The notes: generated by a model from the letters alone, not told the origin. A stretch of 64,000 nt of DNA from Sinomonas gamaensis (GCF_005876955.1 NZ_SSCL01000010.1:3587-67586), one strand, 5' to 3'; positions 2,705 through 32,116 are shown, counted from the stretch's first letter. Numbers and translations are program-made.

Positions 2705-2706
2705 GA

Positions 2707-13294: not shown

Positions 13295-14227
13295 TCATTC
13301 GCCCTCGTCGGTCCCCGTCCAAGGCCCGTCTGGGCCCAGCAGCATCTCCCGCAGGGTCTGCACCACCGCATCGGCTGCCGCTGACATCGGCTCGTGATCC
13401 GGCGTCGCGAGGGCGAATCCTGCCGTGAGCTCGGGATCGGTGATCCTGCGCAGGCTGAACTCGTTGCCGTGGAACCGGGCCTCTGCCGCCGGCCGAGGGA
13501 GGACGGTCACGCCGAGCCCCAGCGCGACCGCGTCACGGAGAGGCCGACTGTGCTCCATCTCGATCAAGACCTTGAGCTCGAGACCCGCCCGGCTCAGCGT
13601 CTGCTCCATCAGGTTCCTCAGCGTATGGGTGCGCGTGGGAAGAATGAATTCGAAATCCGCGAGCGCGGAAATTGGGACTTCCTCCTCGCCCGCTCCCGGC
13701 ACTTCGAGATCGGCCGGAGTGACAAGGACGAGGGGGTCAGTAGAAATGCGATCGAATTTCACGCCCCGAATCGGCCCGGGATCATACACGAGCGCAGCAT
13801 CAATCTGCCCCATGCGAATCGCCTGGCTGTGAATCACCGTGAGCGTCTCGACGATTCGCAGGACGATGCGCGGATAACGCGAGCGGATGGTCTGGAGAAT
13901 CGGGATCGTGAGCGACGAGGCCAGGCTGTAGGGCGCCAGGCCGATCGTGACCGTCCCCGAGGGGCTCGAGAGTTCGGAGTTGATCTCGTGGTGTGCCTCG
14001 GTCTCGAGCCGGAGAATGCTCTGGGCATAGCGATACAGGGAACGGCCTGCGGCAGTCGGAACAATTCCCCGCCGACTGCGCACGAGCAGCTGCTGCTTGA
14101 ATTCCGATTCCAAAGCCGAGACATGCTGGCTCAGTGCAGGCTGGGCGAGATGCAGCAATTCAGCGGCCCTCGTTATCGTCCCGCTGTCGACGATGGTCAC
14201 AAAGTACCGCAGACGCCGCGTTTCCAT
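13295..14227 (-). CDS. LysR family regulator divergent from pxpABC copy 1
   Basis: A LysR helix-turn-helix occupies residues 1-60 (RLRYFVTIVDSGTITRAAE, AQPALSQHVSALE), followed by the two-lobed co-inducer domain. It is of the Nac/Cbl-like type, ending in a variable acidic tail (GTDEGE). The ATG at 14227 is chosen because CGGAGAT precedes it and METRRL is the normal beginning for this group; an ATG ten codons upstream lacks a good site. It is divergent from the 5-oxoprolinase genes and paralogous to the regulator at 27410-28339, which has the same arrangement. It most likely activates pxpABC. Confidence 0.88.
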   Translation of the reverse strand: METRRLRYFVTIVDSGTITRAAELLHLAQPALSQHVSALESEFKQQLLVRSRRGIVPTAAGRSLYRYAQSILRLETEAHHEINSELSSPSGTVTIGLAPYSLASSLTIPILQTIRSRYPRIVLRIVETLTVIHSQAIRMGQIDAALVYDPGPIRGVKFDRISTDPLVLVTPADLEVPGAGEEEVPISALADFEFILPTRTHTLRNLMEQTLSRAGLELKVLIEMEHSRPLRDAVALGLGVTVLPRPAAEARFHGNEFSLRRITDPELTAGFALATPDHEPMSAAADAVVQTLREMLLGPDGPWTGTDEGE

Positions 14228-14254
14228 CAAGATCTCCGATGTTTCGGTCTGTGC

Positions 14255-14290
14255 CATAAGGCAGCCATATATGTCTATGCGAAACGCATA
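14255..14290. promoter_or_regulatory. Candidate LysR operator region between lysR and pxpA (copy 1)
   Basis: The divergent spacer holds a perfect inverted repeat TATGCG-AAA-CGCATA (14276-14290), which also fits the T-N11-A LysR pattern. Just before it, CATAAGG (14255-14261) followed by a TATATG stretch resembles the reverse complement of the repeated element found at the second LysR-pxpA pair. The 36 bases are AT-rich compared with their surroundings. Confidence 0.45.
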
Positions 14291-14368
14291 TTAGCGCACG
14301 GCAACCGCCGCCCGTACGGTTTTTCCATCAGCACCCCCGCTACCAACCCACCAGGCACAGGAGGCTCG

Positions 14369-15151
14369 ATGACGACCACAGTGGACCTGATCGCCGATCT
14401 CGGCGAGAGCTTCGGCGCCTACACGATGGGCGACGACGACGCCCTCCTCGACATTGTCAGCTCGGCGAACGTCGCGTGCGGCTTCCACGCCGGCGACCCC
14501 CGCGTCATGGACCGCACCGTGGCCGAATGCGTCCGGCGCGGAGTCAGCATCGGCGCGCACCCGAGCTTCCCCGACCTCGTGGGCTTCGGCCGCAGGGCGA
14601 TGGATCTCACCGCGGACGAGGTGCGCACCGACGTGATGTACCAGCTCGGCGCCCTCTCGGCCTTCGCCGCCGCACACGGCACGTCCGTCACGCACCTCTG
14701 CCCCCACGGCAGGCTTGGAAATCTCGTGATCACCCGCGAGGACTACGCCGAGGCCATGGTCCAAGCCGTCGCCCTGGTGGACCCCTCGATCATCGTCCTC
14801 ACCCAGGCGGGGGCCGTCGTCGACGCCGCCTCCCGCCGCAGCATCAGGATCGGGCTCGTCGGGGTGATCGACCGCAACTACGAGGACGACGGAACGCTCA
14901 CCCCACGACGGGAGCCCAACGCCGTCATCCATGACACCGATGAGATCGCGGAGCGCACCGTCCGGATGGTCCGCGACGGGGTCGTCATCAGCCGCAACGG
15001 CAAGGAACTGGCCGTGACCACGGACTCCGTGCTGCTGCACGGAGACGGTCCGGACGCCGTCGCCGTCGCGCGCCGCGTCAAGCAGGCCCTGGTCGACGCC
15101 CGCGTCACCATCGCCCCCCTCGCCGGGGCGAACGCTCTCACAGCCCATTGA
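14369..15151 (+). CDS. pxpA: 5-oxoprolinase subunit PxpA (LamB/YcsF family), copy 1
   Basis: PxpA is the LamB/YcsF-family subunit of the three-part, ATP-dependent bacterial 5-oxoprolinase, which opens the lactam of 5-oxoproline to glutamate. The protein shows the conserved opening VDLIADLGESFGAY, then SANVACGFHAGDP, GAHPSFPD.VGFGRR and HLCPHGRLGN. The 260-residue length is normal. The ATG is preceded by AGGAGG. It opens an operon that continues with pxpB, pxpC and an aldolase gene. The second copy at 28777-29583 is clearly homologous but divergent, so the two sets may act on different lactams. Confidence 0.92.
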   Translation: MTTTVDLIADLGESFGAYTMGDDDALLDIVSSANVACGFHAGDPRVMDRTVAECVRRGVSIGAHPSFPDLVGFGRRAMDLTADEVRTDVMYQLGALSAFAAAHGTSVTHLCPHGRLGNLVITREDYAEAMVQAVALVDPSIIVLTQAGAVVDAASRRSIRIGLVGVIDRNYEDDGTLTPRREPNAVIHDTDEIAERTVRMVRDGVVISRNGKELAVTTDSVLLHGDGPDAVAVARRVKQALVDARVTIAPLAGANALTAH

Positions 15152-15188
15152 TCACCGGCACTTGCCGCAACTTCTGCAAGAGACCAGC

Positions 15189-15911
15189 ATGAGAACCCGA
15201 TTAGCACCGTGCGGCGAGGCTGCCTTCCGCGTCCTCATCGAAGACGCCGGTCCGCAAGATCAGTGGGAGGCGGTGCATCGGATCGCGGAATGGATCGGCG
15301 CACGCCCGGTCCCCGGCGTCTATGGCGTGGTGCCGACGTACGACTCCCTCCTCGTGGAGTTCGATCCATCCCGCCAGACGTTCCAGATGCTCTCGGCCGT
15401 ATTCGATGTCGTCCTCGACGACATCCTCCACGACGCCCTCAACCATCCGAACGCGCCGGAGCGCACAGCGCGTCGCTTCACGCTTCCCGTGGTCTACGGC
15501 GGCGAGCACGGGCCCGACCTCGGTTGGGTCGCCGACTACCTCGACATCACCGAGGCCGAGGTGATCGCCCTGCACACGGCCGAGGAATACGTAGTGCGCT
15601 GTCTCGGCGGCCCAGCCGCCTCCTGCATGATCGACGGCCCAGCCTTCCCGAAGCCGATCCCGAGGCTGCCCGATCCGCGCCTCCGGGTGCCGCCGAACGC
15701 GATCTCGGTGGCCGGATCCCAGGGCGTCGTCGGCCCCGTCGCGGCCCCGAGCGGCTGGCGCCTCATCGGCCTCTCCCCCGTGGACGTGATGGACCGCGAG
15801 AGCGCCACCCTCGTCCCGTACCGCCCCGGCGACACGATCCGCTTCAGGTCGATCGCGCCCGGCGAGTGGGACGGCCTCGTCGGGGTCAAGCTCAGTGAGC
15901 TGGTGGCATGA
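15189..15911 (+). CDS. pxpB: 5-oxoprolinase subunit PxpB (KipI family), copy 1
   Basis: PxpB is the KipI-like partner of PxpC. Visible family features are VPTYDSLLVEFDP, LPVVYGGEHGPDL, the helix-rich ITEAEVIALHTAEEYVVRCLG and the C-terminal cyclophilin-like part with PRLRVPPNAISVAG and PYRPGDTIRF. I favour the ATG at 15189; an ATG nine codons earlier is possible but adds residues unlike the family. The stop overlaps the pxpC start. In Bacillus the homologue KipI inhibits a sporulation kinase, but with PxpA and PxpC next door the metabolic role is the better reading. Confidence 0.9.
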   Translation: MRTRLAPCGEAAFRVLIEDAGPQDQWEAVHRIAEWIGARPVPGVYGVVPTYDSLLVEFDPSRQTFQMLSAVFDVVLDDILHDALNHPNAPERTARRFTLPVVYGGEHGPDLGWVADYLDITEAEVIALHTAEEYVVRCLGGPAASCMIDGPAFPKPIPRLPDPRLRVPPNAISVAGSQGVVGPVAAPSGWRLIGLSPVDVMDRESATLVPYRPGDTIRFRSIAPGEWDGLVGVKLSELVA

Positions 15912-16957
15912 TGCTGATCCTCACAGCGGGTCTGACCGTCGTCACCGACCTCGGCCGATTCCAGGGCCCGCCGCTCGGGTTCTCGGTGAACGGCGCGCTC
16001 GACCAGTACTCAGCCCGCGTGGCCAACATCCTCGTGGGCAATCACGACGGCGCCCCGCTCCTCGAGATCACCGCGAGCCGGTTCTCCTTCGCCGCCGAGA
16101 ACGACCTGCTCATCGCGGTCACCGGCTCCGTCGGAACCATTCGGATCGACGGGTACACGGTCGCGGACCACGCGCCCGTCTCCGTCGAGACCGGGCAGAT
16201 CGTCACGATCAGCCCCGGCGCCGTCGGGCTGAGGAGCTACCTCGCCGTCCACGGTTCCTTCACCGTCCCGATGCTGCTGGGCAGCTGCGCCCCGGACAGC
16301 ATGATCGGCTTCGGCCTGCGCCTCGAGAAGGGCCAGCGCCTCGCGTGCAATCTCAGCCAGGCTCCGCTGCGGAACCCCTCGCTGGACCTCCCCCTCCTCC
16401 GGCTCGGGCCGATCGCCGCCCCGATCGAGGAGGAGCCGCACATCGAGGTGACCGACGGCCCCGACATCGCGGAGTTCGGCCAGACCGCGTCGCGGCTCTT
16501 CGAGAGCCCGTACCTTGTGAGCCCTCGCAGCAACCACGTGGGGCTTCGCCTCGCCGGGCACCTCCCCGAGCGCGTCTCGAAGGGCGAGGTCCTCTCGCGC
16601 GGCGTCCCCGTCGGCGCGATCGAGGTCCCCTCGACCCAGGAGCTGCTCGTCCTCCACCGGGGTCGCGGCGTCACCGCCGGCTACCCCGTGCTCGCGGTCC
16701 TCACCCTCCCCGCGTTGGACGCCATGGCCCAGGCACGGCCCGGTCAGCGCGTTCGCTTCCGCCCCACGACCCTCGAGCAGGCTTCGCTCCGTCAGCTCGA
16801 CCAGCACCTGCATCTCACGCGGCTCCGCGAACGGTGCTGGGAGGCTCTCGCCGCGCACGGGGTGGGGGAATTCGACGTCGGACACCCCGTTCAACCGCCC
16901 CAAGAACCCGAGCTTCCCACTTCACAACCACAACCAGCAGAAAGCAGGCTCCCGTGA
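15908..16957 (+). CDS. pxpC: 5-oxoprolinase subunit PxpC (KipA/biotin-dependent carboxyltransferase-like), copy 1
   Basis: PxpC is homologous to urea amidolyase and KipA carboxyltransferase-like domains. Typical stretches are TVVTDLGRFQG, FSVNGALDQYSA, LLGSCAPDSMIGFG, SPRSNHVGLRLAG and HRGRGVTAGYPVLAV. It starts inside the pxpB stop (ATGA). The stop in turn overlaps the GTG of the aldolase gene, so pxpB, pxpC and the aldolase should be translated together. At 349 residues it is slightly longer than copy 2 (337) because of a proline/glutamine-rich tail. Confidence 0.9.
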   Translation: MMLILTAGLTVVTDLGRFQGPPLGFSVNGALDQYSARVANILVGNHDGAPLLEITASRFSFAAENDLLIAVTGSVGTIRIDGYTVADHAPVSVETGQIVTISPGAVGLRSYLAVHGSFTVPMLLGSCAPDSMIGFGLRLEKGQRLACNLSQAPLRNPSLDLPLLRLGPIAAPIEEEPHIEVTDGPDIAEFGQTASRLFESPYLVSPRSNHVGLRLAGHLPERVSKGEVLSRGVPVGAIEVPSTQELLVLHRGRGVTAGYPVLAVLTLPALDAMAQARPGQRVRFRPTTLEQASLRQLDQHLHLTRLRERCWEALAAHGVGEFDVGHPVQPPQEPELPTSQPQPAESRLP

Positions 16958-17631
16958 TCCACGTCCGCACCCGCTTCGACCGTCCGTCGGCCGACGTCGT
17001 CGAACGCCTCGGCGCGTTCTCCTCCGCCACCATCCACGAGGCCCAGGGACGCAAGGGCGCACTGTCCCACCGCATCAAGCCTCTCCACCCCAGCATGTCC
17101 TTCTGCGGCCCCGCCTTCACCGTCAAGGCTCAGCCGGGCGACAACATCATGGTCCAGGTGGCCATCTCCTACGCGCAGCCAGGCGATGTGGTGATCGTCG
17201 AGGCCGGAGAGCTCGAGCAGTCCGGTTCGTTCGGCGAGGTCCTCGCCACCGCGTGCCAGTCGAAGGGCCTCGCCGCCTTCGTCACGGACTCCGGGGTCCG
17301 CGACAGCGCCGAGATCATCAAGCTCGGCTTCCCCGTCTTCTCGGGCTCGGTCTGCATTGAGGGCACGGTCAAGGAGACGCTCGGCCCGGTGAACTACCCG
17401 ATCGCCGTCGGCGGCCAGACCGTGAACCCCGGTGACATCCTCAAGGGCGACGCCGACGGGATCGTCGTCGTGCGTCCCGAGGAAGCAGAGGACATCATCC
17501 GCATCTGCAAGGAGCGCGAGGACCACGAGGCCGAGATCATGGCCCAGCACCGCGCGGGGGGAAAGACCGTCATCGAACTCCACGGCCTGACCGAGAAGCT
17601 CAAGGCCAAGGGACTCCTGGTCGAGGCCTGA
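16954..17631 (+). CDS. HMG/CHA aldolase-like protein (RraA superfamily), copy 1
   Basis: This belongs to the 4-hydroxy-4-methyl-2-oxoglutarate/4-carboxy-4-hydroxy-2-oxoadipate aldolase group, metal-dependent lyases that release pyruvate from 4-hydroxy-2-oxo acids; RraA is a non-enzymatic relative. The landmarks are SSATIHEAQGRKGALS, the metal/substrate motif DSGVRDS and GDILKGDADGIVVV. Counting 21 residues back from the Arg of VRD gives Glu where I recall the aldolases carry Asp (D-X20-R-D); copy 2 has Asp. The GTG start overlaps the pxpC stop by four bases and gives 225 residues. It could alternatively decarboxylate oxaloacetate. Confidence 0.82.
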   Translation: MIHVRTRFDRPSADVVERLGAFSSATIHEAQGRKGALSHRIKPLHPSMSFCGPAFTVKAQPGDNIMVQVAISYAQPGDVVIVEAGELEQSGSFGEVLATACQSKGLAAFVTDSGVRDSAEIIKLGFPVFSGSVCIEGTVKETLGPVNYPIAVGGQTVNPGDILKGDADGIVVVRPEEAEDIIRICKEREDHEAEIMAQHRAGGKTVIELHGLTEKLKAKGLLVEA

Positions 17632-17660
17632 TTCGAGCACTGGAAAAGGAAGAATTCCCG

Positions 17661-18785
17661 ATGGCAACGACCATGACCCTCAACCCAGTCCAGCGTCGCG
17701 TCCAGCGCGTCGCCGAGCAGATGGACGCGGCCGGCGCCGACGTGCTCCTGGCCACGAGCCCGAGCGCCATCGCCTACCTCGCCGACCTCAACATCCGCTC
17801 GTTCACAGCCCCCGGAACGGTTCTCGTCCTCGGGCCGGGCGGGAACACTACGCTCCTCGCCTCCGAGGCCGACCAGCCCAAGATCGCGGCAAGCGGCTAC
17901 CGGGGGCTCACCGATTTCTGGTCCCTCGGCCAGGACGCCGAGGAGCGCCGCGAATCGGTGCTCCGCATGCATCTCTCCGGCCTCCCCTCCTCGGCTCGTG
18001 TCGCCGCAGAACGCGGCGCGCTGCGGGAAGGCGCGATCGCTGCCGAGCCGATCCTTGACGCGGCCATGCGCATCAAGGACGACGACGAAATCCGTCGCCT
18101 CCGTGCCGCGGCCGACTTGGCCGACATCGGGTACACCGCGGTCGTCGACAGGATGACCCCCGAACTGCGGGTCTACGAGATCGTCCGCAACGTTGACCGT
18201 TCGCTCCGGCGGGCGGGCGGCGGCGAGTTCTGGTCCCCCCTCGAGGATGCTGCCGGAGTCACCCGGGCCGGCTATTACCCGGCGGGGAGCATCGCGACCC
18301 TCCTTGGGAGGCACGAGGAGACCGGCGTCCTGGATCCGAGCCAGCCGCTCCCGTTCGCGCTGTACCCGCTGAGCGAGAACTACACGGGCGCCGCCGGCAC
18401 GACGATCGTCTTCGAGACGCCCGGCCCGCTCCTCCGGAGCCTCGCCGACGCCCTGTCCGATGCGACGGAGACCGCCCTCGCCGCAATCCGTCCGGGGATC
18501 CGCGCCGACGAGGTGTTCGCCATCCACCGGCAGGCCCTTCAGGGAACTGTCTCGCCGGACCGCCTCGATCCGATCATCGGCTACTCGCTGGGGACCGGCT
18601 TGGGCCGCCCGCTGCTCTCCGCGACCTCCGAAGAGGTCCTCGAACCGGGGATGGCCCTCTCGGTCCGCACCGCGATCACCCGCGAGCAGGGTCCGGGCAT
18701 CGCGTTCCAGACGACCGTCCTCGTCACGGAGACAGGGAACGAGCGGCTGAACATCGTTCCGCTCCGCCTGATCGAACTGCACTAA
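17661..18785 (+). CDS. M24/creatinase-fold protein lacking the metal-binding residues
   Basis: This is a two-domain protein with the architecture of Xaa-Pro aminopeptidases and creatinase. The N-terminal creatinase-like domain covers residues 1-130 (ATSPSAIAYLADLNIRSFT), then a linker helix RIKDDDEIRRLRAAADLADIG and the pita-bread domain. None of the five metallopeptidase ligands can be found. The DxG..D segment reads ALYPLSENYTGAAGTT, the His segment reads GYSLGTGLG, and the two Glu segments read MALSVRTAITRE and IAFQTTVLVTE. It is therefore probably not a peptidase. Creatinase is a known metal-free hydrolase with this fold, so amide or C-N bond cleavage of a small molecule in this pathway is plausible. 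Substrate unknown. Confidence 0.75.
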   Translation: MATTMTLNPVQRRVQRVAEQMDAAGADVLLATSPSAIAYLADLNIRSFTAPGTVLVLGPGGNTTLLASEADQPKIAASGYRGLTDFWSLGQDAEERRESVLRMHLSGLPSSARVAAERGALREGAIAAEPILDAAMRIKDDDEIRRLRAAADLADIGYTAVVDRMTPELRVYEIVRNVDRSLRRAGGGEFWSPLEDAAGVTRAGYYPAGSIATLLGRHEETGVLDPSQPLPFALYPLSENYTGAAGTTIVFETPGPLLRSLADALSDATETALAAIRPGIRADEVFAIHRQALQGTVSPDRLDPIIGYSLGTGLGRPLLSATSEEVLEPGMALSVRTAITREQGPGIAFQTTVLVTETGNERLNIVPLRLIELH

Positions 18786-18828
18786 ATCGCGCTGCACGAA
18801 ATGGCGCAGCACTAGTTAGGGAATGCAC

Positions 18829-19626
18829 ATGACTCCAGCACTTTCCACTGCGACCCCCACGGTCACCCTGACCGCAGGGGCGAAGATGCCCCTCATCGGT
18901 TTCGGGACCCACCCGCTCCGCGGGCAGGAGGCCACCGACGCAATCCTCCAGGCCCTCGACCTCGGCTACCGCAGCGTGGACACGGCCACCCGGTACCAGA
19001 ACCAGGACGCCGTCGGCGCGGCCCTTCGCCAGACGAGCATCCCCCGCGAGGAACTGTTCATCACCACCAAGCTCCCGCCGGACGCCGTCGGCTTCGAGCG
19101 GAAGACCCTCGAGCAGAGCCTCGAAGCCCTCGGGACCGACTACGTGGACCTGTGGCTCATGCACTGGCCTCCGGGCGGCAGCCCGGGCGCAGGCTCCTGG
19201 AAGGAATTCATCCGTGCCCGCGAGGAAGGGCTCGTGCGCGCGATCGGCGTGAGCAACTACCAGCTCCGGCTCCTGGACGCCCTCAAGCGCGAGACCGGGG
19301 AGTACCCCGAGGTGGCGCAGCTCCAGTGGAGCCCCGTCTACTACAGCGAGCGCTACCTCACGGCGTGCCGCGAGCGCGGGATCGTGGTGGGCGCCCACAG
19401 CCCGCTGCGCAGCGCCCGGCTGGAGGATCCGGTGCTGACCGAGATCGCGCGGGCCCACGACGCGACGCCCACCCAGGTCATCATCCGGTGGGACGTGCAG
19501 CACGGCGTTGCGGTCGTCCCCAAGTCGGCGCACCGCGAGCGCATGCTGAGCAACCTCGACGTCATGCGGTTCACCCTCACCGAGGACGAGATGAAGGCCA
19601 TCGATGGGCTCAGCGAACTCGAGTGA
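18829..19626 (+). CDS. Aldo/keto reductase
   Basis: This is an NADPH-dependent carbonyl reductase of the 2,5-diketo-gluconate reductase type. The tetrad is visible as Asp and Tyr in YRSVDTATRYQN, Lys in FITTKLPP and His in LWLMHWPPGG. Cofactor-binding VVPKSAHRERMLSNLDV is near the C-terminus. The second ATG (18829) is preferred, because TTAGGGA sits seven bases before it and would be too close to the first ATG at 18823. The next gene begins 23 bases before its stop. It could reduce the aldehyde or ketone product of the aldolase. Confidence 0.86.
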   Translation: MTPALSTATPTVTLTAGAKMPLIGFGTHPLRGQEATDAILQALDLGYRSVDTATRYQNQDAVGAALRQTSIPREELFITTKLPPDAVGFERKTLEQSLEALGTDYVDLWLMHWPPGGSPGAGSWKEFIRAREEGLVRAIGVSNYQLRLLDALKRETGEYPEVAQLQWSPVYYSERYLTACRERGIVVGAHSPLRSARLEDPVLTEIARAHDATPTQVIIRWDVQHGVAVVPKSAHRERMLSNLDVMRFTLTEDEMKAIDGLSELE

Positions 19627-20503: not shown

Positions 20504-20516
20504 CAGGAGACTCTGA

Positions 20517-24661: not shown

Positions 24662-24752
24662 CTCCTCAACTCCTTTGTCGCAGAATGCAATTATCCGATG
24701 GACAATTCTGGGGTTGGCAACAATGATAAGCCTGAACTGCTGATTCACCGTC

Positions 24753-24767
24753 ATAAGTGGTGCTTAT
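24753..24767. promoter_or_regulatory. Inverted repeat between iclR and the aminotransferase gene
   Basis: ATAAG-TGGTG-CTTAT is a perfect 5-bp inverted repeat in the 199-base AT-rich divergent spacer. GATAAG at 24725-24730 and CTTATC at 24787-24792 repeat the half-site. A TATATAAG sequence at 24808-24815 could be the -10 element for the aminotransferase operon. Together these make a plausible IclR control region, though no binding site is proven. Confidence 0.4.
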
Positions 24768-24860: not shown

Positions 24861-26069
24861 ATGTCCGAGTATCAGCCGGCTTCGCGGGTCACCCGCATCC
24901 GGGAGTCCGCAAGCGTCCTCGCGGCGGCTCGGGTCCGCGAGCTCAAGGCAGAGGGACGGTCGATCATCGACCTCACGGTCGGCGAGCCGGACTTCGACAC
25001 CCCAGACCACGTCAAGCGGGCCGCCATTGCCGCCATCGAGGCCAGCGAGACCAAGTACACCGCCGTGACGGGCACCCCTCAGCTTCGTGCGGCGATCCTC
25101 GGCCACGTCGAGCGCCGGACCGGGCTGACCTACTCCGCCTCCGAGATCACGATCGCCGGTGGCGCGAAGCAGGTCATCTTCACCGCCCTCATGGCCTCGC
25201 TCAACGAAGGCGACGAGGTCATCGTCCCGGCCCCGTATTGGGTCTCCTATCCGGACATGGTGCTGGCCAACGACGGCACGCCCGTGATCGTCCCCTGCGG
25301 TGACGAGGTGGGCTTCAAGCTCACGCCGGAGGCTCTGGCAGCCGCGATCACACCCGCCACGAAGTGGCTCATCCTCAACGCGCCCTCGAACCCGACCGGC
25401 GTCGTGTACTCGCGCGCCGAACTCGAGGCCCTCGCGGCGGTCCTCGAAGAGAATCCGCAGGTCCTCGTCCTGACCGACGAGATCTACGACGAGATCTACT
25501 TCGGTGAGGGACAGATTACGAGCCTCGTCGCCGCCGCGCCGCAGCTCCGCGACCGTATTCTCGTGGTCAACGGTGTCTCGAAGGCGTACGCGATGACCGG
25601 CTGGCGGCTGGGCTACGCCGTCGGGCCCGCCCCGCTCATCGCCTCGATCAACAAGCTCCAGTCGCAGATCTCCTCCTGCCCGTCCTCGATCAGCCAGGCC
25701 GCTGCCGCTGCCGCCCTCACGGGGGACCAGTCCTTCGTTGCCGAATGCGTGGAGGCGTACCGCGAGCGGCGCGATGCCGCCGTCGTAGGCCTCAACGCCG
25801 TCGAAGGCCTCTCCTGCGAGACGCCGCAGGGCGCGTTCTACGCCTACGTGAAGTGCGAGGGCGCAATCGGGAAGACCACGCCGGCGGGCGCAAGGATCGA
25901 GAACGACCAGGATTTCGTTCTCTACCTCCTCGACGCCGCATCGGTCGCGGTGATTCCGGGCTCCGCCTACGGCCTCGGACCATATTTCCGCATTTCCTTC
26001 GCGACGTCCCTCGAAACCATCAAGGCCGGGGTGGAGGCCATCGACAAGGCCGTCCGCGCCCTGGGCTAA
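24861..26069 (+). CDS. Aspartate aminotransferase-like class I aminotransferase
   Basis: This PLP enzyme resembles bacterial subgroup I-gamma aspartate aminotransferases. The landmarks are LTVGEPDFDTPDHV, YTAVTGTPQLRAAI, PAPYWVSYPDMV, NAPSNPTGVVYSRAEL, TDEIYDEIYFGEG, the Schiff-base Lys in VNGVSKAYAMTGWRLGYA, and a C-terminal Arg in YFRISFATSL that holds the substrate alpha-carboxylate. GGAGGAG precedes the ATG. It is followed after 23 bases by the second aldolase gene; such a pair would turn a 4-hydroxyglutamate-type amino acid into its 2-oxo acid and then cleave it. Confidence 0.88.
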   Translation: MSEYQPASRVTRIRESASVLAAARVRELKAEGRSIIDLTVGEPDFDTPDHVKRAAIAAIEASETKYTAVTGTPQLRAAILGHVERRTGLTYSASEITIAGGAKQVIFTALMASLNEGDEVIVPAPYWVSYPDMVLANDGTPVIVPCGDEVGFKLTPEALAAAITPATKWLILNAPSNPTGVVYSRAELEALAAVLEENPQVLVLTDEIYDEIYFGEGQITSLVAAAPQLRDRILVVNGVSKAYAMTGWRLGYAVGPAPLIASINKLQSQISSCPSSISQAAAAAALTGDQSFVAECVEAYRERRDAAVVGLNAVEGLSCETPQGAFYAYVKCEGAIGKTTPAGARIENDQDFVLYLLDAASVAVIPGSAYGLGPYFRISFATSLETIKAGVEAIDKAVRALG

Positions 26070-26092
26070 TTCGATTCACAAAAGAGAGAACC

Positions 26093-26776
26093 ATGGAACA
26101 GATGATTCACGTCAAGACCAAATTCGAGCGCCCGGACGCGGACGTCGTCAAGCGCCTCTCCGCGTTCTCGTCGGCGACGATCCACGAGGCTCAGGGCCGC
26201 AAGGGCGCCCTCAGCTCGCGCATCAAGCCGATTGACCGCTCGATGTCCTTCTGCGGCCCGGCCGTCACCGTCCGCTGCGCCCCGCGCGACAACCTCATGC
26301 TCCAGGTGGCCATCCACTACGCGCAGGAGGGCGACGTGGTCCTCGTGGGCGCCGGCGAATTCACCGAGGCCGGCACGTTCGGCGACGTCCTCGGCAACGC
26401 CATGAAGGCCAAGGGCATCGCTGCCATGGTCACCGACTCGGGCGTCCGCGACACAGCGGACCTCATCGAGCTCGGCCTCCCGGTCTTCTCCGGCAGCATC
26501 TCGATCAAGGGCACCGTCAAGGAGACCCTCGGGCCGATCAACCACCCGATCGTGATCGGCGACGAGGTCATCTACCCCGGTGACATCCTCAAGGGCGATG
26601 CCGACGGCGTCGTGGTGGTGCGGCGCGACGAGGCCGAGGAGGTCATCGCGCTCTCACAGGCGCGAGTCGACAAGGAGAACGAGCTCATCAAGCAGTACCA
26701 CGCGGGTGGCACGACGATCGAGCTGTGCAACCTGACGGACGTGCTCAAGGCGAAGGGCCTCCTGGTCGAGGACTGA
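26093..26776 (+). CDS. HMG/CHA aldolase-like protein (RraA superfamily), copy 2
   Basis: This is a 227-residue paralogue of the protein at 16954-17631, sharing HVKTKFERPDADVVKRL, SSATIHEAQGRKGAL, DSGVRDT and GDILKGDADGVVVVR. Here the residue 21 positions before the Arg of VRD is Asp, matching the D-X20-R-D pattern I associate with catalytically active members. Activity as a pyruvate-releasing aldolase is therefore more secure than for copy 1. The ATG follows AGAGAGAA. It is co-transcribed with the aspartate-aminotransferase-like gene and followed by an intrinsic terminator. Confidence 0.85.
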   Translation: MEQMIHVKTKFERPDADVVKRLSAFSSATIHEAQGRKGALSSRIKPIDRSMSFCGPAVTVRCAPRDNLMLQVAIHYAQEGDVVLVGAGEFTEAGTFGDVLGNAMKAKGIAAMVTDSGVRDTADLIELGLPVFSGSISIKGTVKETLGPINHPIVIGDEVIYPGDILKGDADGVVVVRRDEAEEVIALSQARVDKENELIKQYHAGGTTIELCNLTDVLKAKGLLVED

Positions 26777-26797
26777 GCCCGCAGCTACGCTAAAGCG

Positions 26798-26826: not shown

Positions 26827-26851
26827 GCGCGGTCGGGCCCATTCGCAGTCA

Positions 26852-26940: not shown

Positions 26941-26976
26941 AACTTCGACTCCGGCACACGGGTGCATAACGCACAA

Positions 26977-27010
26977 ATGAGGAGGGCCCCGATTCAGGGG
27001 CCCTCCTCAT
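26977..27010. terminator. Perfect 14-bp hairpin, terminator of the small minus-strand gene
   Basis: ATGAGGAGGGCCCC, loop GATTCA, then the exact complement forms a 14-bp stem 17 bases beyond the stop of the small gene at 27027-27251. A short T-rich tract follows on the minus strand. It separates the convergent aldolase and small-gene transcripts. Confidence 0.65.
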
Positions 27011-27026
27011 GGCTTCGGTGAAATTC

Positions 27027-27251: not shown

Positions 27252-27409
27252 TTCAGGGCTTCCTCGCGCTGCGTCAGCTGGCTTCCGCTGACTTAAGAAT
27301 TGATCTGATAGATCAATGGTAGGCAGCACAATACGGCGCTGAATAAGATCAAAGTCGAGTGCCTAGATAAGGCTCCGCTATGGATAAGCTGCAGACGAGC
27401 AGCGGACCC

Positions 27410-28339
27410 TCAGGCCGCATCCGTCCCGTAGCGGGCCAGGAGCTGGTTCTTGATCATCTCGCGCAGCAGGATCAGCACGGCCGAGGCCGCCTCGGACATC
27501 GGCTCGTGGTCGGCGGTGCACAGCCCGAACTTCACGTGCAGATCTGGATCGACGAGGCGCCTCATCCGGAAATCGGCGTCCGGGAAGAGAGCATCTGCCG
27601 CAGACCTGGGGAGGACCGTCGCCCCGAGATTCGCGCGGAGGAGCCGGAACAGCGCCGGCACGGATTCCACTTCTCCGGCAACCCGGAGGGTCAGGCCCTG
27701 CTCGGCAAACGCCTTGTCGAGGAGCCGCCGGACCGTGTGGTTGTCCTCGGGCAGGAAGAGTGGGAGCTCAGAGGTTTCGCGAAGAGTGATCGGCTCGTCC
27801 TTGTCGAAGTCAGGACCCACCTCGGGACTCGCCACCACGTAGAGTTCGTCCAGGATCATGCTCGTGAACCGGAGACCCTTGGTTTCCCGCGGCTCGTAGA
27901 TCAGGGCCATGTCCAGCCTGCCGTTCTTGATGGCGTCGCTGAGCACGCCGCCGAAGATCTCCGTCAGGTGCAGGGTGATGTCGGGATACCGGCGGCCCAC
28001 TTCGCGGACAATGGCAGGAGCAAGACTCGAGGCCATGCAATACGGTGCCATCGCAATGGCCACCCGGCCGGAGGGCGCCGCTCCAGACCTCTCCACATCC
28101 AGCCTGGCCTGCTCCACCAAGCGAAGGATCGACTGCGCGTGCCGGTAGAGGGCATTGCCGGCAGCCGTCGGCTCGACGCCCTGCTTGCTCCGGATGAGAA
28201 GCCTCTGCTTGAGTTCCTTCTCGAGGGCGGACACCTGCTGGCTGAGCGCCGGCTGGGCTACATGCAGGGCCGCCGCAGCCTTCGTGATGCTGCCCGAGTC
28301 GACGATCCTCACGAAGTACTCGAGCTTCCGGGTGTCCAC
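27410..28339 (-). CDS. LysR family regulator associated with pxpABC copy 2
   Basis: The LysR helix-turn-helix is in residues 1-60 (KLEYFVRIVDSGSITKAAAAL, AQPALSQQVSALEKEL), followed by a co-inducer domain. It resembles the regulator at 13295-14227 along its whole length, including AMAPYCMASSL versus GLAPYSLASSL and TADHEPMS versus TPDHEPMS, so the two are paralogues. The start is GTG with AGGAAACG upstream. It is divergent from pxpA copy 2 across a 437-base spacer that contains a repeated element. Confidence 0.88.
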   Translation of the reverse strand: MDTRKLEYFVRIVDSGSITKAAAALHVAQPALSQQVSALEKELKQRLLIRSKQGVEPTAAGNALYRHAQSILRLVEQARLDVERSGAAPSGRVAIAMAPYCMASSLAPAIVREVGRRYPDITLHLTEIFGGVLSDAIKNGRLDMALIYEPRETKGLRFTSMILDELYVVASPEVGPDFDKDEPITLRETSELPLFLPEDNHTVRRLLDKAFAEQGLTLRVAGEVESVPALFRLLRANLGATVLPRSAADALFPDADFRMRRLVDPDLHVKFGLCTADHEPMSEAASAVLILLREMIKNQLLARYGTDAA

Positions 28340-28366
28340 CGTTTCCTACCTTTCTCAGAGGCCGCT

Positions 28367-28385
28367 GTCATAGCGGATCCTTATG
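28367..28385. promoter_or_regulatory. Candidate LysR operator, LysR-proximal copy
   Basis: GTCATAGCGGATCCTTAT matches 15 of 18 bases of the element at 28663-28680. It has dyad character (CATA...TTATG around GGATCC) and the T-N11-A pattern of LysR sites. It lies 28 bases upstream of the lysR start, as expected for autorepression. Confidence 0.45.
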
Positions 28386-28662
28386 TCGGGACACAGAACC
28401 GGTCTGGCTTGAGGGCTGAGACCATTCCGAAATCCGATTGCCTCAGCAAGAGATTCAGGACCCTCCAGAAAAAACGCCCGAAAGAATTCAATGTGATCCA
28501 TGAGAACCGTGCGTGCGATTTTACACGAAGCAGCCCGCGGCGGCCACGGCGCTCACGGGGGGGCGCCGCCGCCACCAAGCCGCCGACCGTCGTCGTCCTC
28601 TGCAGGCGCGGCGACAGGCTGCTGCTGGGCCGGGCGCCGCGGGCCGGCAGCCTGTGCCGCGG

Positions 28663-28680
28663 GTCATAACGGACCCCTAT
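28663..28680. promoter_or_regulatory. Candidate LysR operator, pxpA-proximal copy
   Basis: GTCATAACGGACCCCTAT is the second copy of the element at 28367, about 100 bases upstream of pxpA, a position suitable for activation by a LysR protein. It is followed by further AT-richer sequence (GTGACATCCAATAGG) in which the pxpA promoter may lie. Confidence 0.45.
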
Positions 28681-28776
28681 CCCGTGACATCCAATAGGTC
28701 TTTGTGCCCGCGGTTCCGGCGGTGAGACGATCCATGAGGAGCAAATGTCCGCCGCTGAGCACGAAAAGAGAAACAC

Positions 28777-29583
28777 GTGAACCCGATGATCGATCTCGTG
28801 GCAGATCTCGGAGAAGGATTCGGCGCTTACCGGATGGGAAATGATCCGGAACTGCTCGAAATCGTCTCGAGCGCCAATATCGCATGTGGGTTCCACGCCG
28901 GTGACCCGGACATCATGAATTCCACGGTTGCCGAATGCGTGCGCCGCGGCGTGGGCATCGGAGCCCACCCGAGCTTCCCGGACCTCCGCGGATTCGGCCG
29001 CCGGGCGATGGACCTCAGCGAGGACGAGGTGCGCAACGACGTCGTCTACCAGCTCGGCGCGCTCTCGGGGTTTGCCGCCCTTCACGGGACCAAGGTCTCC
29101 CACATCGCGCCGCACGGCCGCCTCGGCAATCTGGTGGCCGTCCGCCCCGACTACGCCGCCGCCGTCGCCGATGCCGCCGCGGGCTTCGACAAGAACCTCA
29201 TCGTGGTTGCCCAGGAGGGCGAACTCGCCACGGCCGCGCGGGAGCGCGGACTCCGCGTGGGGCTCGTGGGCATCGTGGACCGCGCCTATCAGGCCGACGG
29301 CACCCTCGTGCCGCGAGGCCTCCCGGGTGCCGTGCTCCATGACCCGAAGGAGATCGTCGAGCGAACGGTGCGTATGGTCGTGGAAGGCAAGATCGCCACG
29401 GTCGCCGGCACCGATCTCGACATCGCGGCAGACACGGTGCTTCTGCACGGGGACAACCCCGGCGCCGTCGATCTCGCGCGCCTCATCCGCAGCGAACTCA
29501 CCGCCGCGGGAGTCCAGATCGCTCCCCTCGCCGACGTCATCGCCGCCAAGCACGCCGAACAGACCAAGTCTCCGGCGGCCTGA
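28777..29583 (+). CDS. pxpA: 5-oxoprolinase subunit PxpA (LamB/YcsF family), copy 2
   Basis: This is the second PxpA of the window. It has IDLVADLGEGFGAYRMGN, SANIACGFHAGDP, GAHPSFPDLRGFGRR and HIAPHGRLGN, with a longer alanine/lysine-rich tail than copy 1. The start is GTG preceded by AAAGAGAAA; an ATG three codons later is possible. It is followed one base after its stop by pxpB copy 2. This operon has no aldolase gene of its own, but the copy-2 aldolase and aminotransferase operon lies 2 kb upstream on the same strand. Confidence 0.92.
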   Translation: MNPMIDLVADLGEGFGAYRMGNDPELLEIVSSANIACGFHAGDPDIMNSTVAECVRRGVGIGAHPSFPDLRGFGRRAMDLSEDEVRNDVVYQLGALSGFAALHGTKVSHIAPHGRLGNLVAVRPDYAAAVADAAAGFDKNLIVVAQEGELATAARERGLRVGLVGIVDRAYQADGTLVPRGLPGAVLHDPKEIVERTVRMVVEGKIATVAGTDLDIAADTVLLHGDNPGAVDLARLIRSELTAAGVQIAPLADVIAAKHAEQTKSPAA

Positions 29584-29584
29584 G

Positions 29585-30313
29585 ATGTCCGTCTCCCCCT
29601 TCTCCCCTGCGCCGGTGCAGGTCTTCGAATCCGGCGATGCGGCCCTGCGCGTCGTCGCCACCTCCGGCGACGCCGAGCGGGACTGGTCAACCGTCCACCA
29701 CCTCGCGGAGTGGCTCGAGGCCTGCGGTGCGGAAGGCCTGCATGGCGCGGTTCCCACCTATGATTCGGTCCTCGTGGAATTCGATGTCCTCGCTGTGTCC
29801 GCACAGCAGGTCCGTGCCTTCGTCGGCCTCGGCCTGCGGCAGCTGGCCCTGGCGGCCGACGACGGCGCCGCACCACGCGAGTTCGACGTCCCCGTGGTGT
29901 ACGGGGGAGCGTATGGTCCCGACCTCGAGGCGGTCGCCCAGCATGAGGGGCTCTCGGTCGAGGACATCATCCGACTGCACTCGTCCAAGACCTACGTGGT
30001 CCGCTGCCTCGGCGCCCCGGCCGGCTCGCCCATGATGGACGGCCCCGCCTTCCCGCTGCCGGTCCCGCGGCTCAAGGATCCCCGCCTGAGCGTCCCCGCA
30101 GGTGCCGTCTCCGTGGCCGGCCGGCAGGCCGTCATCGCCCCCGCGGTTGCACCAGGCGGATGGCAGGTCATCGGCCAGACCCCGCTCACGCTCCTGGACA
30201 TCCATCGCGATCCGCTCGTGCCCTACAAGCCCGGGGACATCCTCCGGTTCCGGCAGATTCCGGAGGGCGAGTTCGCCGACTTCGCGGGGCACCTGATGGA
30301 GGCGGGACGATGA
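29585..30313 (+). CDS. pxpB: 5-oxoprolinase subunit PxpB (KipI family), copy 2
   Basis: A KipI-like subunit with GAVPTYDSVLVEFDV, VPVVYGGAYGPDLEAVA, SVEDIIRLHSSKTYVVRCLG, PRLKDPRLSVPAGAVSVAGRQ and PYKPGDILRF. The ATG follows the pxpA stop by one base, and its own stop overlaps the pxpC ATG. Compared with copy 1 it has a longer, proline-rich N-terminus. Confidence 0.9.
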   Translation: MSVSPFSPAPVQVFESGDAALRVVATSGDAERDWSTVHHLAEWLEACGAEGLHGAVPTYDSVLVEFDVLAVSAQQVRAFVGLGLRQLALAADDGAAPREFDVPVVYGGAYGPDLEAVAQHEGLSVEDIIRLHSSKTYVVRCLGAPAGSPMMDGPAFPLPVPRLKDPRLSVPAGAVSVAGRQAVIAPAVAPGGWQVIGQTPLTLLDIHRDPLVPYKPGDILRFRQIPEGEFADFAGHLMEAGR

Positions 30314-31323
30314 GCGGCACGATCCTCATCCAGCAGGCCGGCAACTCGGTGGTCACCGACCTCGGGCGCTTCCGCGGCCCGCACTACGGCCTCCCCGTCA
30401 ATGGCGCGCTGGACCAGTACTCCGCGAAGGCCGCGAACATCCTCGCAGGCAACCCCGAGAACGCGCCGCTGTTCGAGCTCACCGGGCTCGATTTCAGGAT
30501 GACGACGACGGCGGACCTCCTGATCGCCGTGACCGGCGCCCCGCTGACCCTCACCGTTGGCGGCCGGGAATGCACGCAGTGGGAGCCGGTCTCGGTCCGC
30601 GCTGGCGAGACGGTCGCCGTCCGTGGCATCCACGGCGGCCTCCGGGCCTACGTGGCCGTGCACGGCTCGGTCGAGGTGCCGTTCCTGCTCGGCAGCTGCG
30701 CGCCGGACACGGTCGTCGGCTTCGGCCACAAGCTCCGGGACGGCGACTGCCTCGAGACCCTCCGCAGCGTCCCGCCGATCCGCCATCCGTACATGGACAT
30801 GCCGCTCTTCCGCCTGGGCGTCGCGCGGCCGCGGACTGCGCACGACCACGTTGTGGAAGTGACCGACGGCCCGGACTACGACGAGTTCGGCGAGTCGGCG
30901 AACCTGCTCTTCAGCTCCGAATACACCGTGAGCCCGCGGAGCAATCACATTGGCCTGCGGCTGGGCGGCGACCTGCCGGAACGGACGACGACGGGCGAAG
31001 TCCTCTCCCGCGGGGTGCCCGTCGGCGCCGTCGAAGTCCCCTCGCGGGAGGAGCTTCTGGTGATTCACCGCGGCCGCGGGGTGACCGCCGGATATCCGGT
31101 GCTCGCCGTCGCCACGAGCCTCGGACTCGATGTTCTGGCCCAGGCCCGCCCGGGCGACAAGGTGCGGTTCAGGAGGACGACGGTAGCTGAGGCCACGGCC
31201 GCGTACCGGCGCTCGATGCAACAGCTCGAAACCCTCCGGGAGTCCGTCTCCTCCGTCTTCAACCTCTTGGGCATCGGAGGACCCGCCCACTGGCACGAAG
31301 TGCCGGCAGCCGCGTGCGGCTGA
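30310..31323 (+). CDS. pxpC: 5-oxoprolinase subunit PxpC (KipA family), copy 2
   Basis: This is the carboxyltransferase-like subunit. Conserved stretches are SVVTDLGRFRGP, LPVNGALDQYSAKAANIL, LLGSCAPDTVVGFG, SPRSNHIGLRLGGDLPE and HRGRGVTAGYPVLAV. The ATG at 30310 overlaps the pxpB stop; a longer upstream frame is only read-through. With PxpA and PxpB it should form a complete ATP-dependent lactam hydrolase. The SDR gene follows after 43 bases. Confidence 0.9.
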   Translation: MSGTILIQQAGNSVVTDLGRFRGPHYGLPVNGALDQYSAKAANILAGNPENAPLFELTGLDFRMTTTADLLIAVTGAPLTLTVGGRECTQWEPVSVRAGETVAVRGIHGGLRAYVAVHGSVEVPFLLGSCAPDTVVGFGHKLRDGDCLETLRSVPPIRHPYMDMPLFRLGVARPRTAHDHVVEVTDGPDYDEFGESANLLFSSEYTVSPRSNHIGLRLGGDLPERTTTGEVLSRGVPVGAVEVPSREELLVIHRGRGVTAGYPVLAVATSLGLDVLAQARPGDKVRFRRTTVAEATAAYRRSMQQLETLRESVSSVFNLLGIGGPAHWHEVPAAACG

Positions 31324-31366
31324 CCTCATCCGACTGTTTTCAACGCTCTAACCCCTGGAGATTCAC

Positions 31367-32116
31367 ATGCCCTTCACTGATTACAAGACCGCCCTCGTCA
31401 CCGGCGCCTCGACCGGCATGGGTGCAGCCATCGCCGAGCTGCTCACCAAGCGCGGCCTGACCGTCCACGCCGTCGCGCGCAACGAGGAGCGCCTCAAGGA
31501 GCTCGCGGACCGCACCGGAGCTGTGGCGCACGCCCTGGACCTCACGGACACCGCGGCTGTCGCCGCCGAGCTGGGCGGCCTCGAGATCGATGTCCTCATC
31601 AACTGCGCCGGGGTGTCCCGCCCGGGCAACATCCTGGACTCCTCGGAGGCGGACCTCGACGAGATCATCGACGTCAACCTCCGCGGGCTGCTTCAGTTGA
31701 CCCGGATCCTGCTGCCGGGCATGGTCGAGCGGGACCTCGGCCACATTGTGAACATCAGCTCGATCGCCGGCGTGTACAACTTCTACGGCCACACGGCCTA
31801 CCACGCCACGAAGGCGGCCGTGCACCAGATCTCGCGCCAGCTGCGCAATGACACGGTGGGCAAGCGCATCCGCGTGACCGAGGTCTGCCCGGGCCGCGTG
31901 GAGACTGAGATCTTCGGCCGCAACATGGGCGGTACCCCGGAGGCCATGGAAGAGGCCTGGAAGACGTTCTATGAGGGCTACGAGTCGCTGACGACCGCCG
32001 ACATCGTCGACGCCATCGACTACGCGATCGAGACCCCGCGGCACGTCAACGTGGGCATGATCGAGATCATGCCGACCTTCCAGGTTCCGGGCGGCCTGAC
32101 CTTCGACCGCCGCTGA
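31367..32116 (+). CDS. SDR family oxidoreductase, YdfG-like
   Basis: This is a classical SDR with TGASTGMGAAIAELL, Arg after beta-2 (HAVARNEERL, suggesting NADPH), NCAGVSRPG, SSIAGVYNFYGHTAYHATKAAV as the catalytic Ser/Tyr/Lys segment and CPGRVETEIF. It resembles the 3-hydroxy-acid dehydrogenase group represented by YdfG, which acts on serine, 3-hydroxyisobutyrate and similar compounds. The C-terminus IEIMPTFQVPGG is typical of that group. It closes the pxpABC copy 2 operon before a strong terminator. A role in reducing a semialdehyde product of the pathway is inference. Confidence 0.85.
   Translation: MPFTDYKTALVTGASTGMGAAIAELLTKRGLTVHAVARNEERLKELADRTGAVAHALDLTDTAAVAAELGGLEIDVLINCAGVSRPGNILDSSEADLDEIIDVNLRGLLQLTRILLPGMVERDLGHIVNISSIAGVYNFYGHTAYHATKAAVHQISRQLRNDTVGKRIRVTEVCPGRVETEIFGRNMGGTPEAMEEAWKTFYEGYESLTTADIVDAIDYAIETPRHVNVGMIEIMPTFQVPGGLTFDRR

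Follow-up and report, generated by a model that had tools for sequence, protein, structure and literature searches.

Here, we describe two gene modules at positions 13295 to 32116 of a 64,000-nucleotide stretch of the Sinomonas gamaensis genome (the window; NZ_SSCL01000010.1:3587-67586, from the 4.32 Mb assembly GCF_005876955.1). Each module encodes the three subunits of a 5-oxoprolinase-type enzyme (PxpA, PxpB and PxpC; together, PxpABC), a LysR regulator, an aminotransferase and an RraA protein resembling aldolases for 4-hydroxy-4-methyl-2-oxoglutarate and 4-carboxy-4-hydroxy-2-oxoadipate (HMG/CHA aldolases), and both PxpA proteins lack a lysine of the usual PxpA motif. The sequence itself shows which genes are present, that their linkage is conserved, that the PxpA motif is altered and that aldolase residues are kept. 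We take the conserved module of known enzyme families with its diagnostic residue to be real, and its substrate and activities to be predictions. In our judgment, there is about an even chance that both are accessory modules for the inducible catabolism of substituted pyroglutamate-type lactams, the breakdown of which would release pyruvate and a second product, R-CO-COOH, that is perhaps a 2-keto-aldonate in many lineages.

A lysine-less class of PxpA and its gene neighbourhood

The lysine of the KPHG motif served as class criterion, a yardstick of this analysis rather than a published one; by this one residue, 138 aligned PxpA sequences (rows) were split into 76 with and 62 without lysine. 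The lysine-less loci came from a named genome scan (80 loci kept of at least 594), seven genus regions, 28 of the listed family places and 12 plasmid records. In both window copies, the usual motif KPHGALYN is replaced by C/A-PHGRLGN; the wider segment reads YVKPHG(A/G)LYN in 22 lysine-bearing rows caught by a motif pattern, and H-x-(C/A)-PHGRLGN in the window copies and the sequences nearest to them. The conserved blocks that flank this change (DLGE, ACGFHAGDP, PHG and HGD) are mostly kept in lysine-less PxpA. Among 61 intact lysine-less rows, the lysine position is occupied by Ala (46), Ser (11), Cys (2), Thr (1) or Gly (1), and all 61 have Gly at the place of the usual Tyr, compared to 4 of the 76 lysine-bearing rows; the latter vary more in wider alignments, with Tyr in 57/76. 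Three lysine-less forms occur among the 57 loci counted below, i.e., xPHG(R/K)LGN (37), APHGRMGS (9) and, in Pseudomonadota, SFHGALGN-like (11). Loss of both Lys and Tyr may make the pocket roomier. PxpA, PxpB and PxpC homologues are encoded together in both window copies (PF03746, PF02682 and PF02626). PxpB of the window scores 101 and 128 bits (cut-off 145.55), that of the genome's lysine-bearing fused set 124, and a lysine-less Microvirga PxpB passes with 192; PxpC of the window scores 156 and 146 bits (cut-off 500), and that of the fused set, with 157, also falls short. Because the PxpB and PxpC cut-offs do not separate the two classes, we dropped them as a test. Further motif classes keep Lys and change the rest (KPHGQLNN, KPHGMMGN, KPHGSLGN and KPHGALGN; loci L066, L073, L075, L081, L087 and others), and these may be PxpA subgroups other than plain 5-oxoprolinases.

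The two classes differ sharply in their neighbours. Counted loci had at least 6 kb on each side of PxpA (57 lysine-less and 60 lysine-bearing), and partners were sought within 10 kb; L049, L050, L063 and L182 (all lysine-less) and 16 lysine-bearing rows had less than 6 kb on one side and were left out, as was L138, in which frames are broken. RraA was found at 54 of the 57 lysine-less loci, the aminotransferase at 56, a short-chain dehydrogenase/reductase (SDR) like that of the second window module (SDR2) at 44 and a NAC-like LysR at 43, compared to 0/60 lysine-bearing loci for each. With loci grouped at 80% PxpA identity, the counts were 23/26, 25/26, 20/26 and 20/26, respectively, versus 0/48 each; at 70% identity, RraA and the aminotransferase were each found in 13/13 groups versus 0/39. 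Thus, the conserved gene neighbourhood that the preliminary description of this DNA had set beforehand as a test is found, and because the linkage recurs widely, the module is more than a chance grouping. The detection panel was drawn from the window and lysine-less clusters and favours matches at lysine-less loci. Eight partner families gave 0/12 each at lysine-bearing controls from 11 genus genomes and one family genome. Moreover, a search with a relaxed RraA threshold and seeds from the genome's other RraA proteins detected neither RraA nor the module aminotransferase at the lysine-bearing loci covered; L112 and L132, which it flagged, are lysine-less. Finally, all-against-all clustering of neighbouring open reading frames (ORFs) at 27 lysine-less loci, in which panel matches had priority when overlapping ORFs were picked, gave as families present in at least five loci the Pxp/biotin subunits, aminotransferase, SDRs, RraA, 2-hydroxyacid dehydrogenase (HADH), L-idonate 5-dehydrogenase-like (IdnD) and gluconokinase (GntK); no other enzyme family reached five of the 27 loci, the remainder being regulators or transporters, apart from a single protein that has no Pfam match.

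These counts bear directly on the idea that the window sets are ordinary duplicate 5-oxoprolinases that by chance lie near unrelated genes. It would agree with PxpA scores that exceed the threshold set for the general PxpA subfamily and with the degradation of 5-oxoproline by PxpABC of Corynebacterium glutamicum (PMC13274462). However, the window's genome separately encodes a lysine-bearing PxpA with a fused PxpBC, and with partners linked at 54 to 56 of 57 loci versus 0/60 we regard ordinary duplicates as highly improbable.

The partners also diverge in parallel. PxpA distances correlate with those of RraA (Mantel r 0.845, 57 loci), aminotransferase (0.807, 59 loci), SDR2 (0.865, 47 loci) and LysR (0.883, 46 loci), with 0/999 permutations as high in these tests, a correlation to which host kinship contributes. 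ATA-N9-TAT, which we take to be a NAC-type site, occurs upstream of LysR, no more than 300 bp from its start, in 31/46 loci, where Markov shuffles predict 1.5; in the 300 bp upstream of PxpA, it occurs in 24/57 lysine-less versus 3/60 lysine-bearing loci. In the window, such sites are found near copy 2; the copy-1 intergenic region has none, and neither does the DNA preceding the aminotransferase gene of copy 2 (AT2).

The module occurs in Actinomycetota and Pseudomonadota, among others in Streptomyces, Rhodococcus, Amycolatopsis, Microbacterium, Variovorax, Pseudomonas, Bradyrhizobium, Burkholderia, Microvirga, Sinorhizobium, Rhizobium and Terrarubrum, on chromosomes and megaplasmids, and its hosts include soil and legume-root isolates. 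In Paenarthrobacter aurescens TC1, locus L065 combines LysR, PxpABC, MFS, SDR2, aminotransferase and RraA genes. With at most six candidates scored per genome, a PxpA2-like match at E 1e-70 was found in the own genome only among 396 sampled phylum genomes (a lower bound), and at E 1e-75 in at least 49/395 family genomes, own included; 6/15 genus genomes, own included, have one. Annotated plasmid clusters with the set are found in Bradyrhizobium, Burkholderia, Microvirga, Sinorhizobium and Terrarubrum, and their lysine-less PxpA is labelled "5-oxoprolinase subunit PxpA". The Pseudomonadota block comprises, in variable order, aminotransferase, RraA, "NAC", AccB, AccC, PxpB, PxpC, PxpA and SDR, and a second biotin-carrier-like gene precedes PxpA in three annotated Pseudomonadota plasmids. 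An amino-acid ABC importer is part of the Bradyrhizobium, Burkholderia, Microvirga and Sinorhizobium clusters and another ABC type of the Terrarubrum cluster; many actinobacterial loci have a major facilitator superfamily (MFS) symporter, and in some actinobacterial loci an ABC transporter is encoded next to PxpA. The amino-acid importers are in keeping with an amino-acid-like substrate. L137, on Pseudonocardia alni plasmid pPaSha1, has lysine-less PxpA standing alone, with every partner gene missing and transposase genes close by; this stretch is probably a decayed module. On an Arthrobacter sp. StoSoilB13 plasmid (L138), a record that carries no annotation, the module is present and the PxpA and PxpC frames seem broken, possibly by sequencing error.

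A possible lactam pathway and its alternatives

In HMG/CHA aldolase, Arg-123 is essential, and Asp-124 and Glu-199 bind the metal (PMC5065237). The nearest PDB structure to RraA2 is the Pseudomonas putida enzyme 3noj, and its residues Arg-123, Asp-124, Glu-199, Gly-101 and Lys-147 are kept in all 57 cluster RraA proteins, both window copies included; the Asp-102 position is occupied by D (40), E (11) or G (6) in the 57, with E in window copy 1 and D in copy 2. RraA1 and RraA2 (188.2 and 197.7 bits) miss the LigK/PcmE equivalog TIGR02798 (cut-off 304.5). Of the aminotransferases, AT2 passes the aspartate transaminase model NF004769 (PRK06107) and AT1, with 244.9 bits, stays below its cut-off of 617. 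HMG/CHA aldolases cleave HMG and CHA to pyruvate and R-CO-COOH, have an active site that is large for the substrate, and decarboxylate oxaloacetate as a side activity (PMC5065237). This side activity suggests a reading in which RraA is only an oxaloacetate decarboxylase, with oxaloacetate supplied or drained by the aspartate transaminase and no aldol cleavage. The kept residues are undecisive here because both reactions use them, and the Burkholderia cluster includes a gene for phosphoenolpyruvate (PEP) carboxylase; nevertheless, a decarboxylase would leave unexplained why a lactam opener needs the RraA-transaminase pair, and we think it very improbable.

The preliminary description had proposed a chain from PxpABC via an aminotransferase to an HMG/CHA-type aldolase. 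Conserved linkage, parallel divergence (r 0.81-0.88) and kept residues now speak for this chain, for which we still infer the class of substrate. We suggest that an amino-acid-like lactam would be taken up by a symporter or ABC transporter and that a NAC-like LysR would switch on the genes. Lysine-less PxpABC would then open the ring with ATP to yield a 4-hydroxy-4-substituted glutamate whose C5 carboxyl has been freed, the aspartate-type aminotransferase would convert this to the matching 2-oxo acid, and the RraA/HMG-type aldolase would cleave the 2-oxo acid to pyruvate and R-CO-COOH. An opened and transaminated lactam would suit an HMG-type aldolase because the 4-hydroxy-2-oxo acids used by this enzyme carry a carboxyl on C4. 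The YdfG-like SDR2 would reduce or oxidise a hydroxy or keto group on R, either ahead of ring opening or afterwards. The R-CO-COOH of many lineages is probably a 2-keto-aldonate of the 2-keto-L-gulonate type, which would be drained by a 2-hydroxyacid dehydrogenase to L-idonate, by L-idonate 5-dehydrogenase to 5-ketogluconate, and by a gluconate 5-dehydrogenase-like SDR to gluconate, the substrate of a gluconokinase.

The neighbours that suggest this drain are a recurrent, not constant, partner of the module. IdnD-like genes were found at 26/57 lysine-less versus 1/60 lysine-bearing loci, gluconate 5-dehydrogenase-like (SDRa-like) genes at 23/57 versus 4/60, gluconokinase genes at 18/57 versus 1/60 and HADH genes at 11/57 versus 2/60; two or more of the four occur at 26/57 versus 1/60 (11/26 versus 1/48 after grouping at 80%). 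The Burkholderia, Microvirga and Sinorhizobium clusters have varying selections of D-glycerate/2-hydroxyacid dehydrogenase, L-idonate 5-dehydrogenase, SDR, gluconokinase, transhydrogenase and PEP carboxylase genes. The best PDB match of the zinc dehydrogenase ADH2 of the window is L-idonate 5-dehydrogenase 6dkh, and that of the Microvirga SDR is gluconate 5-dehydrogenase 5u9p; the Microvirga 2-hydroxyacid dehydrogenase is nearest 4lsw and hydroxyphenylpyruvate reductase, so that ketoaldonate is not singled out. The window counterparts are the genes at 7102-8142, 8174-8908, 12178-13239 and 22782-23834, with no gluconokinase gene within 10 kb of either window PxpA. For part of the loci only (26/57), the processing of a second carbonyl compound that the preliminary description had envisaged can be specified further, as an idonate/gluconate-type sugar-acid route.

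Two other substrates have to be weighed against these neighbours. In one, the chain is unchanged and R is small, as in 4-hydroxypyroglutamate (R=H, giving glyoxylate), 4-hydroxy-4-methyl-pyroglutamate (pyruvate) or 4-hydroxy-4-carboxymethyl-pyroglutamate (oxaloacetate), the sugar-acid genes being neighbours for other reasons. Methyl and carboxymethyl are documented in HMG/CHA aldolase substrates (PMC5065237), 4-hydroxyglutamate becomes 4-hydroxy-5-oxoproline in sample work-up (PMC13117884), and the best NCBIfam match of the window 2-hydroxyacid dehydrogenase is glyoxylate reductase. A small R would sit less well with the idonate counts above, with the roomier pocket suggested by the Lys and Tyr loss and with the five annotated clusters, in which no hydroxyproline gene is named; we consider it a real but doubtful possibility. 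In the other, an imino- or amino-sugar lactam such as gluconolactam would give an amino-deoxy-aldonate and, by the aminotransferase, a ketoaldonate for the idonate genes. The idonate/gluconate genes would then be directly explained, whereas no job would be left for the RraA aldolase at 54/57 loci, AT2, as an aspartate transaminase above the curated cut-off, is an alpha-amino acid enzyme, and amino-acid ABC importers are part of all five annotated Pseudomonadota clusters except that of Terrarubrum, which has another ABC type. A sugar lactam therefore seems improbable.

For the lactam route via a 2-keto-aldonate, the one plant compound known to us that would give such a product is ascorbalamic acid, an ascorbate-alanine adduct with a bond between C2 of L-ascorbate and C3 of alanine; it is reportedly treated by Couchman et al. 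in 1973. Its amine would close on ascorbate C1 to form a 4-hydroxy-4-acyl-pyroglutamate. SDR2 would reduce the former C3 ketone, PxpABC would open the lactam, AT2 would make the 2-oxo acid, and RraA would release pyruvate and 2-keto-L-gulonate, which would pass via L-idonate, 5-ketogluconate and gluconate to 6-phosphogluconate. On this route, every enzyme family found in at least five of the 27 clustered loci would have a step. Ascorbate plus alanine minus 2 H gives C9H13NO8, the formula that a study of potato cyst nematode (PMC9229034) and one of rat urine (PMC3976912) list for ascorbalamic acid, and the compound is named at m/z 262.0594 in an orange study (PMC4935991), all putative mass spectrometry annotations. 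That the module is a first bacterial route for ascorbalamic acid is the boldest reading, which we rate as unlikely.

Other candidate substrates were set aside. 4-Methyleneglutamine from peanut came up through seven peanut Bradyrhizobium plasmids; these are of near-equal size and have the same score, probably represent one lineage, and many of the plasmid records are rhizobial. Agropinic acid and Amadori lactams do not fit by reasoning, as the aminotransferase needs a primary amine.

Several points weigh against catabolic modules for substituted pyroglutamates and, in part, against the sugar-acid drain. Family names give a type of reaction and not a substrate, the enzyme activities are predictions from sequence, and the dehydrogenases score below curated NCBIfam cut-offs. 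None of the four idonate-type genes lies within 10 kb in 25/57 lysine-less loci, the same observation that favours a small R; one does in 6/57, and window copy 2 has the IdnD-like gene alone of the four. The conserved SDR2 is missing from copy 1, which has additional reductases. L061, L132 and L137 lack RraA and L137 also the aminotransferase. Raw linkage counts overstate independence because 38/57 lysine-less loci are from the family of the window (taken to be Micrococcaceae; three are named Arthrobacter or Paenarthrobacter), and, apart from the 12 controls mentioned above, the 60 lysine-bearing loci span a wider taxonomy than the lysine-less ones. In close relatives, several of the LysR-site matches repeat a single sequence. 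Lastly, in the AlphaFold model of PxpA2 (mean pLDDT 84) residues 111-113, within the motif loop, have pLDDT <50; because confidence is low in the very loop at issue, we draw no conclusion from the model.

The two copies in the window

Pfam, NCBIfam and gene limits agree with the preliminary description of 13295-32116, which carries LysR-PxpABC sets, RraA/HMG-type aldolases and class I/II aminotransferases, two of each (Table 1). The two modules are, however, unlike in composition. Copy 1 has the order LysR1 / PxpA1-PxpB1-PxpC1-RraA1-M24-AKR-HIBADH-AT1-ADH1 and copy 2, which has the widespread core, the order ADH2-IclR / AT2-RraA2 / LysR2 / PxpA2-PxpB2-PxpC2-SDR2. Overlaps of 4 bases, as in operons, join PxpB1/PxpC1, PxpC1/RraA1 and PxpB2/PxpC2. 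The M24 protein, the altered PxpA motif and a partnership of copy 1 with the genes at 5514-13239 go beyond the earlier account. We assign the latter genes to copy 1 because relatives of several of them (MFS, HADH and TIM barrel) adjoin copy-1-type PxpA in L061 and L130; L130 also has relatives of the IdnD-like alcohol dehydrogenase (ADH) and of one SDR. The best PDB matches of the 12178-13239 product are glyoxylate reductases and also include 9m0t, a "probable 2-ketogluconate reductase". The genome as a whole encodes four PxpA and six RraA proteins, and a third set on contig 8 (L014) has the order IclR-IdnD-like-RraA-MFS-PxpABC-SDR-AT1-like.

Table 1. Genes and candidate regulator sites of the two modules and adjoining DNA, in window coordinates
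Feature	Position	Strand	Basis
MFS metabolite:H+ symporter, copy-1 uptake candidate	5514..6914	-	TIGR00883/ProP-like, below NCBIfam cut-off; 59-62% relatives beside PxpA in loci L061, L130
Zinc alcohol dehydrogenase ADH0, L-idonate 5-dehydrogenase-like	7102..8142	-	best NCBIfam NF007375, 233.6 bits, cut-off 469 not reached
SDR, KduD/gluconate 5-dehydrogenase-like	8174..8908	-	best NCBIfam TIGR01832, below cut-off
SDR	8901..9689	-	NCBIfam
Xylose isomerase-like TIM barrel protein, start uncertain	9690..10757	-	Pfam PF01261
SDR	10639..11391	-	NCBIfam
GntR/FCD regulator	11462..12181	-	Pfam PF00392, PF07729
D-2-hydroxyacid dehydrogenase, glyoxylate/2-ketoaldonate reductase-like	12178..13239	-	best NCBIfam glyoxylate reductase, below cut-off
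LysR1, NAC-like regulator	13295..14257	-	Pfam; best NCBIfam NF008410 NAC, 262 bits, below cut-off 309
PxpA1, motif THLCPHGRLGN without lysine	14369..15151	+	NF003814, 317.4 bits > cut-off 226; PF03746
PxpB1	15162..15911	+	Pfam PF02682
PxpC1	15908..16957	+	Pfam PF02626
RraA1, HMG/CHA-type aldolase	16954..17631	+	NF006731, 216.8 > cut-off 179; catalytic residues kept, Asp-102 = Glu
M24 protein, prolidase/ectoine hydrolase-like	17661..18785	+	Pfam PF00557
Aldo/keto reductase (AKR), 2,5-diketogluconate reductase-like	18823..19626	+	best NCBIfam NF008598, below cut-off
Beta-hydroxyacid dehydrogenase (HIBADH), tartronate semialdehyde reductase-like	19604..20503	+	best NCBIfam TIGR01505, below cut-off
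Aminotransferase AT1, class I/II	20517..21674	+	Pfam PF00155
Zinc alcohol dehydrogenase ADH1	21741..22781	+	Pfam; NCBIfam Ahr-like, below cut-off
Zinc dehydrogenase ADH2, L-idonate 5-dehydrogenase-like	22782..23834	-	best PDB match 6dkh; NF007375, 236.9 bits, below cut-off 469
IclR regulator	23876..24754	-	Pfam
AT2, aspartate transaminase	24861..26069	+	NF004769, 687.9 bits > cut-off 617
RraA2, HMG/CHA-type aldolase	26093..26776	+	NF006731, 226.2 > cut-off 179; best PDB match 3noj
ATA-N9-TAT LysR-site candidate	27367..27381
LysR2, NAC-like regulator	27410..28339	-	NF008410, 307.7 bits, cut-off 309 narrowly missed
ATA-N9-TAT LysR-site candidate	28370..28384
ATA-N9-TAT LysR-site candidate	28666..28680
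PxpA2, motif SHIAPHGRLGN without lysine	28777..29583	+	NF003814, 325.5 bits > cut-off 226; Pfam
PxpB2	29585..30313	+	Pfam PF02682 on enclosing frame
PxpC2	30310..31323	+	Pfam PF02626 on enclosing frame
SDR2, YdfG-like 3-hydroxy acid dehydrogenase, core partner	31367..32116	+	best NCBIfam NF007829, below cut-off; best PDB match 3asu

A protein related to the M24 protein at 17661-18785 (36% over 240 aa) is encoded in the Streptomyces shenzhenensis cluster L061. Next to copy 2, the ORF product of 32200-32808 has no Pfam match at E 1e-5; its relatives adjoin the module in 8/27 loci, and in L053-L055 a relative shares a stretch with a gluconokinase-like gene. Further away, the minus strand of 88-5461 has peptide/nickel-type ABC transporter genes; three genes of 88-3750 have 88-91% orthologues in the block that links both modules of the relative G010 (L049/L050), and the ATPase match there is just 35%. 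UbiA prenyltransferase, squalene/phytoene synthase, polyprenyl synthase and NUDIX (IPP isomerase-like) genes (Pfam) at 38321-46469 look like a carotenoid cluster, a name that follows from these families.

Relation to known systems

The preliminary description knew of no pathway of this composition, and we likewise found no account of a PxpABC-aminotransferase-RraA module in the PMC literature, a scope outside which most subscription papers lie. Many HMG/CHA aldolase homologues occur outside the HMG and CHA pathways with a role called unknown (PMC5065237), and the module would assign a role to some of those outside aromatic degradation. The habit, in the annotated plasmids, of labelling lysine-less PxpA as "5-oxoprolinase subunit PxpA" turns into a testable split, with a PxpA class whose neighbours point to a different pathway. 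If the sugar-acid reading is true, bacteria of two phyla would use a plant-derived lactam amino acid.

Bacteria catabolize L-idonate and 2-keto-L-gulonate to gluconate. Genes for a 2-hydroxyacid dehydrogenase, L-idonate 5-dehydrogenase- and gluconate 5-dehydrogenase-like enzymes and gluconokinase, as in that catabolism, recur at the module, and lactam opening followed by aldol cleavage would be a new entry route. Catabolism of L-idonate and 2-keto-L-gulonate is also described for fungi and plants (PMC5306355, PMC4870679 and PMC11066805). With the HMG/CHA aldolases of P. putida F1 (3noj) and LigK, the module RraA proteins share the RraA fold family, Arg-123, Asp-124 and Glu-199 and pass the NF006731 cut-off, but remain below that of the equivalog TIGR02798; no ring-cleavage gene was seen among the scanned window genes of 7102-32116. 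The PxpABC 5-oxoprolinases of Escherichia coli, Bacillus subtilis and C. glutamicum have the three subunits in common with the module. C. glutamicum pxpTABC, the nearest studied relative found, has a GntR repressor and an APC/NRAMP-type transporter, whereas the module has LysR, aminotransferase, RraA and SDR (PMC13274462). Finally, caprolactamase CapAB opens a lactam in an ATP-driven catabolic step, as proposed here, with two hydantoinase/5-oxoprolinase-type subunits, where the module would use PxpABC (PMC8453981).

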